A stretch of 64,000 nucleotides of DNA, from the NCBI RefSeq assembly GCF_004365175.1, contig NZ_SOCE01000001.1, positions 3,789,403 to 3,853,402 on the forward strand, in the 5' to 3' direction. The translations under genes and the position numbers were made by a program. The notes under the pieces were generated by a model. That model saw only the letters and a list, made by a program, of their open reading frames with translations. It was not told where the DNA came from and made no database searches. Source of the stretch: Kribbella voronezhensis. Lineage in GTDB: Bacteria; Actinomycetota; Actinomycetes; Propionibacteriales; Kribbellaceae. Positions 23,935-26,241 of the stretch are shown one piece after another. Numbering within the stretch: the first letter of the stretch is position 1; each line of letters opens with the position of its first letter.

Positions 23935-24789
23935 ATGGTGATGGAGCAACTGCTGAAGGTGCGTGGCGTCGAGTTGTGTGTCGAGACCTTCGGGACGAAG
24001 GACGACCCGGCGATTCTGCTGATCCACGGCGCCTCCGCCTCGATGGATTTCTGGGAGACGCCGTTCTGTGAGCGACTCGCGGCAGCCGGCCGCTTCGTCA
24101 TCCGCTACGACCACCGCGACACCGGCCGCTCGGTCAGCTACGAGCCCGGCAAACCGCAGTACACCGCGGCCGACCTCAGGGAGGATCCGATCGGCATCCT
24201 CGACGCTCTCCACCTCGGGCGCGCGAACATCGTCGGCCTCTCGATGGGCGGCGGCATCTCCCAGGCGCTGGTCCTCGACCACCCCGACCGGGTCGCATCC
24301 GCCACCTTCATCGCCACCAGCCCGATCGCCACCTCGACCCCGGTGGACCTCCCGCCGATGGCAGCTCACCTGCAGGAGGCGTTCGCGGCCGATCAGCCGC
24401 CGACCGACTGGTCCGATCCCGACGCAGCCCTCGACGCGTTCATCCAGGAAGAGCAGCTGTACGCCGGAACTTTCCCGTACGACGAACCGGCTCGCCGTGA
24501 GCTCGTCGCGCGGATGATCGCCCGCACGACCGACCTCGCCTCCGCCATGACCAACCCGTGGATCCTCGACGACGGCGACTCCAAGGACCGCGACCTCGCC
24601 GGCATCGCCGTACCGACGCTCGTCATGCACGGCACCGAGGACCCGATGTTCCGGCCGGCACACGCCGAGGCGCTCGCTCGGGAGATCCCGGGTGCGCGGT
24701 TGGTGCTGCTGGAAGGCGCCGGTCACGAGCTGCCTCAGCAGGTCTGGGACCAGGCGATTCCGGAGCTCGTCGGGATCAGTCGGCGCTGA
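23935..24789 (+). CDS. Alpha/beta hydrolase
   Basis: This 284-residue protein has a classic hydrolase core: 'LLIHGASASMDFWE' (oxyanion), 'VRYD-HRDTGRS', nucleophile Ser in 'GLSMGGG', Asp in 'GTEDPMF' and His in 'GAGHELP'. It is similar to haloperoxidase-like and acetyltransferase-like hydrolases in actinomycete genomes; the substrate is unknown. ATGs at 23935 and 23941 are both behind GAGGAG; the second fits the spacing better. A GTGGATCCAC palindrome at 23886-23895 lies upstream. Confidence 0.85.
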   Translation: MVMEQLLKVRGVELCVETFGTKDDPAILLIHGASASMDFWETPFCERLAAAGRFVIRYDHRDTGRSVSYEPGKPQYTAADLREDPIGILDALHLGRANIVGLSMGGGISQALVLDHPDRVASATFIATSPIATSTPVDLPPMAAHLQEAFAADQPPTDWSDPDAALDAFIQEEQLYAGTFPYDEPARRELVARMIARTTDLASAMTNPWILDDGDSKDRDLAGIAVPTLVMHGTEDPMFRPAHAEALAREIPGARLVLLEGAGHELPQQVWDQAIPELVGISRR

Positions 24790-24857
24790 GAAACCTCTGC
24801 CGGGACACGATCGAAATCTATGCTGACCGGAGTAGACATTCTCTGGAGGGCTGTGTA

Positions 24858-24908
24858 GTGTTCCTCGTGTTGACAGAGAAGAAGAGCGAAGCTGACGTGG
24901 ACAGCTAA
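24858..24908 (+). CDS. Candidate 16-codon leader ORF
   Basis: GTG 24858 begins MFLVLTEKKSEADVDS and a TAA stop. GGAGGG at 24845-24850 lies seven bases before the start, one of the best ribosome sites in the region. It precedes 500 bp of unexplained sequence before the small MerR-like gene, so it could be an upstream ORF that controls transcription or translation, or just a chance ORF. Its short length prevents a homology judgement. Confidence 0.35.
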   Translation: MFLVLTEKKSEADVDS

Positions 24909-25049
24909 CGACCTGTCCAAAAGTGTTTGTGCAGTGAGTGGGACGGCGGATCCCGCCGGGCCGATCAGTGAAGGGGCTCGGGTTTCACGCCAGGGTCAGA
25001 GTCGCGGAGCCGGTGGTAGGAAAGGGTTCCGGGCTTGACGAAGGAAGTA

Positions 25050-25160
25050 GTAGTTCGCAGTGCTGTAGTAGCAGTTCGTAGTTGTAGTTCGCGGTAAGAG
25101 CAGTTGTAGTTCGCAGTTTGTAGTTGCAGTGCAGCAGTTGTCAGATGCAGTAGTAGTTCG
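25050..25160 (+). repeat. GTAGTTCG repeat tract in the leader of the MerR-like gene
   Basis: Between 24909 and 25407 (499 bp) I see no convincing gene. The middle is C-poor and rich in GTAG/CAGTT. GTAGTTCG occurs at 25050, 25084, 25106 and 25153, with a variant at 25071. Spacing is irregular, which argues against a CRISPR array. Further on, CCGGCC-TCAC-GGCCGG (25322-25337) forms a small hairpin. The composition differs sharply from surrounding coding DNA and suggests an RNA leader. Confidence 0.5.
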
Positions 25161-25362
25161 AGACAAGAAGGGGAGGGATTACACCGTCGGATCGCCCGCC
25201 AGTGCCAGTACTTCGCCGGGCGGGTGCCGTAGTTCCATCAGTAAGGAAGGTGGTCTTCGGTTACGCATTCAGCGATCCCCGTAGTGGCAGCCTTCACGTG
25301 GCGCGCTACGGACAGGTAAGTCCGGCCTCACGGCCGGTAGATGGTGGAATATTCCCGACCCT

Positions 25363-25390
25363 GGGCCCCGGTGCTACGGCACCGGGGCCC
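25363..25390 (+). promoter_or_regulatory. Very strong GC hairpin just upstream of the MerR-like gene
   Basis: GGGCCCCGGTGC (25363-25374) pairs with GCACCGGGGCCC (25379-25390): 12 perfect pairs and a TACG tetraloop. It ends 17 bases before ATG 25408 and 8 bases before the ribosome site GGAGG. It could be an attenuator, an RNA-processing site or a terminator of a short leader RNA. Confidence 0.55.
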
Positions 25391-25407
25391 GTCGGCATGG
25401 AGGCGCG

Positions 25408-25755
25408 ATGACCCCAGATGTCCACACGGAGACACCGATGAGTTCAACCCCGACGACCGGCCCCGCCAACTTCGACGACGACGACTATCCCGCCTTCACG
25501 ATGGGCCGGGCCGCGGAGATGCTCGGGACCACGCCGGGATTCCTGCGCAGCCTGGACGAGGCGAAGCTGATCACCCCGCAACGGTCCGAGGGTGGTCACC
25601 GTCGCTATTCCCGGTACCAGTTGCGGCTGGCCGCTCGCGCTCGCGAGCTGGTCGACCAGGGCACCGCGCTCGAGGCCGCCTGTCGGATCATCATCTTGGA
25701 AGACCAGTTGGCCGAAGCGCTGCGCATCAACGAGGAGATGCGCGAGAAGGGCTAG
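25408..25755 (+). CDS. Small MerR-like helix-turn-helix protein
   Basis: This 115-residue protein has a MerR-type winged helix ('FTMGRAAEMLGTTPGFLRSLDEAKLITPQRSEGGHRRYSRYQL', about residues 30-72) and a short helical tail ('EAACRIIILEDQLAEALRINEEM'). It lacks a ligand domain, like HspR/BldC-type regulators. It is widespread in actinomycetes as far as I recall, and uncharacterised to my knowledge. ATG 25408 has GGAGG only four bases away; ATG 25438 also has a GGAG at good distance, so the start is open. Its long leader is described separately. Confidence 0.75.
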   Translation: MTPDVHTETPMSSTPTTGPANFDDDDYPAFTMGRAAEMLGTTPGFLRSLDEAKLITPQRSEGGHRRYSRYQLRLAARARELVDQGTALEAACRIIILEDQLAEALRINEEMREKG

Positions 25756-25809: not shown

Positions 25810-26241
25810 GTGATCACCATTGAACGTGCCGTCACCGTGGAGAAGCCCGTCGAGACAGTGTTCGCCTACCTGTCCGACTTCGAGACCACCGTCGACTGGG
25901 ATCCCGGGACGGTGTCGACGGTGCGGCTGGCGGGCGACGGCGGCGTCGGCACGAAGTACCGGAACAGGTCCTCGTTCGCCGGCCGCGAGACCGAACTGGA
26001 GTACGTCGTACAGCGGTTCGAGCCCGGCCGGATCTTCCAGGTGCGCGGCGAGAACAAGACCGTGGTCGCGCTCGACACGATGACGTTCCGCGAGACCGGC
26101 AGCGGTACCGAGGTCACCTACCGGGCCGAGTTCGAGTTCAAGGGCGTTGCCCGGGTGATCGAGCCGCTGTTCCGCGGCCAGTTCAAGAAGCTCGGCGACG
26201 AAGCCGAATCCGGACTTCGCGCCGCGCTCCTCGAACTGTAG
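25810..26241 (+). CDS. SRPBCC-family protein
   Basis: This 143-residue protein follows the START/Bet v1-like pattern: 'IERAVTVEKPVETVFAYLSDFETTVDWDPG', 'EYVVQRFEPGRIFQVRGEN', 'MTFRETGSGTEVTYRAEFEFKG' and the long C-terminal helix. These proteins bind hydrophobic ligands such as lipids or polyketides, and the exact ligand is not visible. GTG at 25810 is the only suitable start. It lies 54 bp after the MerR-like gene in the same direction and may be co-transcribed. Confidence 0.82.
   Translation: MITIERAVTVEKPVETVFAYLSDFETTVDWDPGTVSTVRLAGDGGVGTKYRNRSSFAGRETELEYVVQRFEPGRIFQVRGENKTVVALDTMTFRETGSGTEVTYRAEFEFKGVARVIEPLFRGQFKKLGDEAESGLRAALLEL

Follow-up and report, generated by a model that had tools for sequence, protein, structure and literature searches.

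What occupies the long gap between two genes in the window, the 64,000-nucleotide stretch of Kribbella voronezhensis DNA analysed here (source genome of 8.0 Mb in 4 contigs)? An alpha/beta hydrolase gene ends at 24789 and the gene of a MerR-family regulator begins at 25408. The preliminary description had seen no convincing gene in between, and we agree; nor was any tRNA or tmRNA found in the window. The following features define the setting:

24790-25407, + strand: leader region, the gap between the alpha/beta hydrolase gene and the MerR gene
25399-25403, + strand: Shine-Dalgarno-like GGAGG of the MerR gene, read from the sequence
25408-25755, + strand: MerR-family regulator of 115 aa

The regulator carries a MerR HTH domain (Pfam PF13411, E 5e-11; PF00376, E 8.5e-10), and Pfam matched no effector domain in its 115 residues. 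Its best named match is a Kribbella monticola protein, 97% identical, and only two weak relatives with solved structures were found (E 0.007). There are two candidate starts, at 25408 and 25438, and several relatives align only from about residue 11; the true start codon is uncertain. The upstream gene (23935-24789) resembles macrolide esterases (NF052610, 289.9 bits, below the cut-off of 420), while the gene that follows MerR (25810-26241) encodes a Polyketide_cyc2-type protein with a weak match, below cut-off, to the Rv0910 toxin model. The most likely reading of the gap is a transcription-attenuating, riboswitch-like RNA of a new family. More specifically, we consider it probable that the region encodes a long 5' leader RNA dedicated to the small MerR regulator, that it belongs to a new actinomycete RNA family and that it works by attenuation under the control of a structured core.

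This core lies in the gene-proximal part of the leader and is composed of six helices:

25182-25346, + strand: structured RNA core, 165 nt, based on an 82-sequence alignment and pair counts (model R1, 145 bits here)
25182-25188/25340-25346, + strand: P1, which closes the core
25189-25195/25272-25278, + strand: P2, GGATCGC/GCGATCC
25196-25200/25219-25223, + strand: P3
25226-25229/25258-25261, + strand: P4
25279-25284/25306-25311, + strand: P5, CCGTAG/CTACGG
25322-25327/25332-25337, + strand: P6

The alignment, A1, contained 82 of the 84 distinct cores defined by a sequence pattern; L068 and L128, wrongly bounded by the pattern, were left out, and the window sequence was used in place of L001. 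RNAalifold gave a branched structure closed by P1; before pairs were counted, it was edited by hand to include P5 and a further P6 pair and to omit a weak pair of P6. Standard pairs fill 97.1% of the 3003 cells of the 82 sequences, compared with 24-42% when the 3' partners were slid by 1-3 columns as a control. Cells changed on both sides numbered 130 against 50 in shuffles, and further pair types 42 against 34.8; none of 500 shuffles reached either value. Pairs with a double change were 8 against 5.9, a number reached by 38 of the 500 shuffles. The double changes are confined to P3, P5 and P6, changes in P1, P2 and P4 being one-sided or absent. P2 (GGAUCGC/GCGAUCC) hardly varies and therefore does not lend itself to a covariation test. 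Covariance among homologous leaders, which the preliminary description had named as a check on its proposal, is thus borne out by the pairs kept and by the excess of two-sided changes. Several joins of the core are near-invariant (GGURCCGYAG, GGAAGGUGGU and CGGUYACGCAU), which would be in keeping with ligand-binding RNAs. Core length ranges from 149 to 173 nt among homologues. The window core and the predicted transcript fold better than shuffles, with z-scores of -2.50, a modest value, and -2.71, respectively. An open reading frame at 25202-25411, which overlaps the core, was rejected as coding because the lengths of homologous cores differ by non-multiples of three and their variation follows the base pairs.

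A second conserved element separates the core from the gene:

25363-25390, + strand: 12-bp GC hairpin with perfect pairing and a 4-nt loop, a probable terminator lacking a U-tract

It follows the core by 16 nt and leaves 17 nt to the start codon of merR. Among 143 distinct copies, 141 have a hairpin with 10 or more net bp that starts no more than 45 nt after the core, and 136 of these hairpins are fully paired when G-U is counted. Their 5' arms are of 54 different sequences, so pairing is kept while the sequence changes. This is the GC-rich, perfectly paired hairpin expected of an intrinsic terminator. No U-tract follows it, with 0-4 T in the next 8 nt. A Streptomyces avermitilis study describes transcript ends without U-rich sequence as bona fide, although weaker than U-rich ones (PMC8780764), and on this basis the missing U-tract need not prevent the hairpin from acting as a terminator.

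To determine how widely the RNA occurs, genomes were searched with R1, without using the MerR protein. The source genome contains a single copy (145 bits). Own genome included, matches were found in 58 of the 296 genomes sampled from the class and in 29 of 245 from the order, 28 of the latter among the 38 of the genus; in a sample of 296 genomes of the phylum there were 9, all within the class. The leader DNA itself was matched in 30 of the 38 genomes of the genus. Three copies are present in G018 and four in G055. The gene-proximal part of the leader also occurs, by BLAST and by the model, in Streptomyces, Kitasatospora, Actinomadura, Actinoallomurus, Streptosporangium, Actinocrinis, Frankia and others. 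Relatives share a common plan, in which the promoter is followed by the 5' hairpin, a variable linker, the core, the GC hairpin, a ribosome site and MerR.

The association with MerR was then quantified on the 81 copies that the class sample holds outside the own genome, in a listing of which four rows (L156, L169) repeat loci present twice. A MerR gene lies downstream of 75 of the 81 copies, and in 73 of these the MerR match starts within 200 nt of the core. In the other two the match lies at 694 and 1273 nt, and each of these copies is the first of a tandem pair. For the remaining 6 copies, no MerR was found within 2.5 kb of the core. The gene is thus preceded, on its own strand, by a conserved, aptamer-like structure, as is the case for riboswitches. 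Conversely, among 80 loci selected by MerR protein similarity alone, 63 have the RNA at an E-value of 0.01 or better. It is missing at 17, one of which has only 50 bases upstream. Several of these 17 keep the promoter with a short leader, and therefore MerR can do without the RNA. Variants of the plan were also seen. At three Nocardia loci (L028, L034, L065) the promoter region and the 5' hairpin are kept and a different, smaller folded core precedes the end hairpin, possibly a swap or strong reduction of the sensor. Upstream of five Kribbella MerR copies (L010, L129, L130, L131, L132) the promoter region is kept and the core was not found by the model; L010, L129 and L130 show only remnants of the 5' and end hairpins.

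The promoter is the third shared element of the leader:

24814-24861, + strand: AAATCT/GTAGACAT promoter, a motif found upstream of 109 of 143 distinct cores
24814-24819, + strand: AAATCT box, followed by 13 nt to the -35
24833-24838, + strand: -35 box TAGACA, with a 17-nt spacer to the -10
24856-24861, + strand: predicted -10 box TAGTGT

The strict pattern, AAATCT-N13-TAGACAT followed by TANNGT, accounts for these 109 copies; it missed 34, one of which has only 102 bases upstream. In the own genome, the motif has one exact site and, elsewhere, one site with three mismatches, and beyond the latter no other gene was found under it. In 10 other genomes, a search allowing up to two mismatches gave 15 matches, while the reversed control gave none. 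Each of the 15 has an R1 match on its own strand no more than 0.6 kb downstream, and together they cover 15 of the 18 R1 copies in those genomes. Since every match stands in front of the RNA, the promoter motif seems to be dedicated to the leader RNA loci. The AAATCT and AGACATT boxes can be read as an imperfect inverted repeat, which might by inference be an operator for MerR.

Between promoter and core, the leader is made of hairpins and repeats:

24898-24919, + strand: 5' hairpin TGGACAG-CTAACGAC-CTGTCCA, 7-bp perfect stem, from a hairpin search and reading of the sequence
24957-24980, + strand: hairpin module copy 1, CGGGCC-GATCAGTGAAGG-GGCTCG, of the GGRRCC..GGYYCC module
25006-25030, + strand: hairpin module copy 2, GGAGCC-GGTGGTAGGAAAG-GGTTCC, of the same module
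25046-25164, + strand: C-poor repeat tract of AGTAGTAGTTCGCAGT-like units, 5 copies of 16 nt

The 5' hairpin and the 12-bp hairpin near the gene are the two perfect hairpins already noted in the preliminary description. In other genera the 5' hairpin often reads GGCAG-ANANGAA-CTGCC with a varying outer stem. The search found a hairpin in 93 of 109 leaders; many of these share the inner stem and loop, and some picks are other hairpins. The GGRRCC..GGYYCC module is present in 28 copies in 21 of 61 leaders, against 0.67 expected from shuffles. The C-poor tract is confirmed as well: C makes up 34% of the window but 13% of 25034-25180 and 17% of 24870-25180, the break in composition that had first been remarked upon. 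The word GTAGTTCG has 4 copies in 25050-25160, which is 4 of the 9 matches in the window; 1.02 were expected there, and none of 100 shuffles reached 9. As an element of the whole genome it was rejected: the two strands have 118 and 116 matches, and the reversed control has 107 and 123. Among 91 leaders, GCAGTAC is present in 44 and was observed 106 times in all, against 2.9 in shuffles; GCAGTTCG was observed 17 times against 0.8. The GTAGTTCG tract is probably a local lineage version of this wider GCAGTAC/GCAGTTCG repeat. Thus, with regard to conservation in relatives, the core and the end hairpin are kept, whereas the GTAGTTCG repeat is a local feature. Pairs of GCAGTAC also occur outside the leaders: across 8 genomes they gave 33 matches, as did the reversed control, and 13 of the 33 are, by reading, in such leaders. 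The leaders of one family (L221, L202, L203, L210), whose part upstream of the core is about 390 to 700 nt long, carry long arrays of similar hairpins with GCAGTAC-like single strands between them.

These elements suggest the following mechanism. Transcription would start at about 24868, as predicted from the locus-specific promoter motif, and RNA polymerase would pass through the 5' hairpin, the linker of hairpin modules and GCAGTAC-type repeats, the 165-nt core and the GC hairpin. From this promoter, merR would be made only by read-through of the GC hairpin, since the short distance from hairpin to gene could scarcely accommodate another promoter. Whether transcription stops or reads through would depend on the state of the core, in the manner of a riboswitch or attenuator. 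Under such control in cis, we would give a small ligand an even chance of being the trigger; the level of an RNA chaperone or temperature appears less likely, and MerR itself or another protein the least likely of the three. An anti-terminator was sought between core and hairpin. The window contains a perfect complement of 10 nt, between the core (25223-25232) and the loop and 3' arm of the hairpin (25374-25383). Over 141 copies, own and swapped terminators pair equally well with the core (p 0.32 and 0.95), which gives no sign of a co-evolving anti-terminator pairing. The switch may accordingly use folding kinetics or a bound factor, or differ from the mechanism proposed here.

The fate of copies without MerR bears on whether the RNA acts on its neighbour at all. 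Six Kribbella copies (L093, L098/L120, L103/L125, L116, L117 and L100/L127) retain the core and end hairpin where MerR is gone, truncated or frameshifted; in L093, L120 and L125 the sequence diverges immediately downstream of the hairpin. All six are in genomes that have further copies. Their median score is 141.3 against 139.7 for the other 30 Kribbella copies (p 0.55, kinship ignored; among the 30 is one genome from a different family, G343, and MerR intactness was checked for part of the group), and in linker and core they resemble their nearest copy about as much as the others do. This parity favours either a MerR-independent role or a recent loss. In the class sample, the 8 copies that are not directly before MerR score lower than the 73 others (102.6 against 123.3; p 0.0013, kinship ignored), which favours a role in cis, since weaker cores away from MerR are expected if the RNA serves the neighbouring gene. 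Tandem units of promoter, core and hairpin were observed in L171 (1663-2278), L172 (2344-3096) and L173 (1376-2745). The first unit of each is not directly before MerR, and in L171 neither unit is, no MerR being found there within 2.5 kb.

Two readings take such copies as their starting point. In the first, which we regard as doubtful, the leader would exemplify a modular RNA class with a private promoter and end hairpin, built from the 165-nt sensor core, hairpin modules and GCAGUAC repeats, and acting in cis on MerR and in trans from stand-alone or tandem copies. In the second, an unlikely one, the promoter-RNA-hairpin unit would be an RNA gene that acts in trans, for instance on other mRNAs or with its GCAGTAC repeats serving as a protein sponge, and MerR would be a partner reached by occasional read-through. 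The enrichment of the repeat word fits such an RNA gene, as do the 6 of 81 class-sample copies without MerR, the two upstream copies of tandem pairs, the two complete units of L171 and the Kribbella copies that score like the rest despite a damaged MerR. It is harder to reconcile with the fixed position before MerR in most copies and with the weaker cores away from MerR in the class sample, and the Kribbella losses may be recent. Attenuation in cis remains our preferred reading.

A special case of control in cis, less likely again, is a cold-shock leader like that of E. coli cspA, in which temperature or CspA-type chaperones would melt the hairpin or core and let transcription proceed into merR. 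In E. coli, CspC and CspE act in antitermination, which would provide a precedent. Evidence for this idea comes from the neighbourhood of MerR. Genes for cold-shock proteins (CSP), DEAD-box helicases, CBS or SCO5918-family proteins are present at 26 of 80 and 21 of 80 loci in two partly overlapping sets. CSP alone is found at 17 loci of one set and 13 of the other, whereas its density in seven genomes (52 CSP genes in 58.2 Mb) would predict about 0.4 and 0.3. MerR relatives are also found on plasmids (93 records, 62 from Streptomyces and 24 from Rhodococcus), and on annotated Streptomyces plasmids the gene order is MerR, cold-shock protein, DEAD-box helicase, CBS, SCO5918 family. The core lies upstream in five of the six plasmid loci examined (L135, L136, L138, L139, L140) and not in L137; three of the six combine MerR with a cold-shock protein, a helicase and the SCO5918 family. 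However, in the first set (L005-L084) these neighbours are commoner where the RNA is missing (10 of 17 loci, against 16 of 63 with it), and the same holds for CSP alone (8 of 17 against 9 of 63). Cold-shock-type neighbours are therefore linked more closely to the MerR gene than to the RNA. Furthermore, one plasmid has them without the RNA, no gene of these four kinds adjoins the leader or MerR in the window, and the Rfam cspA model gave no match at its cut-off.

A leader-peptide attenuator, in which translation of a short ORF would control transcription, is highly improbable. The preliminary description had reported a 16-codon ORF with a strong ribosome site, and this frame (24858-24908) exists in a formal sense only: its GTG start is inside the predicted -10 box (TAGTGT, 24856-24861), and the supposed ribosome site (24845-24850) is in the promoter spacer, upstream of the predicted transcription start. 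Among 75 other leaders with the promoter motif, a start codon at the same place opens a frame of 14-18 codons in 10 (8 from Kribbella, 2 not), which speaks for a leader peptide; the rest have other ORF lengths or no start there. A Shine-Dalgarno-like word occurs in the spacer of 3 of the 75, never together with the ORF, so that none of the 10 keeps the ribosome site. The 16-codon ORF is thus probably not a gene. A 13-codon GTG ORF could begin at the predicted transcript start, but many Streptomyces leaders have TAGCC or TAACC at this point, and the core lengths of 149-173 nt vary by non-multiples of three. The conserved, translated short ORF expected of such an attenuator was therefore not found, start and length recurring in only 10 of the 75 leaders. 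As for a decaying repeat or functionless remnant of a mobile element, the variable linker and the multiple copies in G018 and G055 could be so explained, but the compensatory changes in core and hairpin across several families leave it practically negligible.

Is the RNA already known? No Rfam 15 family matched in the window at its gathering cut-off, in line with the earlier statement that no known riboswitch is present, and all matches obtained for eight loci and three leaders with lax filters were below the cut-offs. Two of these, to the cspA thermoregulator RF01766, reached only 24.6 and 19.1 bits against a cut-off of 78; both fall outside the core, on the minus strand, at places occupied by csp genes. 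Among the matches listed in the open-access literature, none describes the leader RNA, which is not a proof of novelty. In the main texts of two structured-RNA surveys, MerR has no occurrences. Transcript data of S. avermitilis comprise 188 cis-regulatory units, 15 of them named from Rfam, and the leader RNA could therefore be one of the unnamed entries. The suggestion that the region is a new regulatory RNA or a long 5' UTR is supported by the conserved core with its compensatory changes, by the hairpin in 141 of 143 copies, by the 15 of 15 motif matches in front of the RNA and by the lack of an Rfam 15 match. An RNA this large whose joins vary so little is often a sensor for something that matters to the cell. 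The present one is found on chromosomes and plasmids of Streptomyces and related actinomycetes, and it precedes a regulator at whose loci cold-shock proteins and DEAD-box helicases are over-represented; identifying the trigger would open a regulatory route in these bacteria, for which the conserved core offers a defined 165-nt molecule for probing.

Among known systems, the leader is comparable to riboswitches that use transcription terminators: it shares with them a compact multi-branched core with near-invariant joins, followed by a GC hairpin and one gene family. It differs from them in having no Rfam match and no demonstrated anti-terminator pairing, and in being long, with repeats and modules. 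With the cspA leader (RF01766) it has in common a long structured leader, and cold-shock genes are near part of its loci; yet its scores are below the cut-off, it precedes MerR instead of a csp gene, it has its own promoter and hairpin, and in the present loci cold-shock neighbours are commoner where the RNA is missing. The dauA, livJ, pntA and asfR motifs from a survey of 50 Streptomyces genomes (PMC11109978) are likewise structured leaders recognized by comparative genomics; as far as the main text of that survey goes, they precede other genes, and MerR is not mentioned there. On the protein side, the regulator is comparable to HspR and other small MerR regulators, being a small MerR HTH protein with no matched effector domain, although its 49 bits with the HspR model NF047375 are below the curated cut-off of 105. 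Because neither Rfam 15 nor the matches listed in the literature contain it, the leader RNA would represent, as judged from sequence comparison, a new family within a known kind, the structured leader RNAs, unusual in its length and modularity and in having a private promoter.
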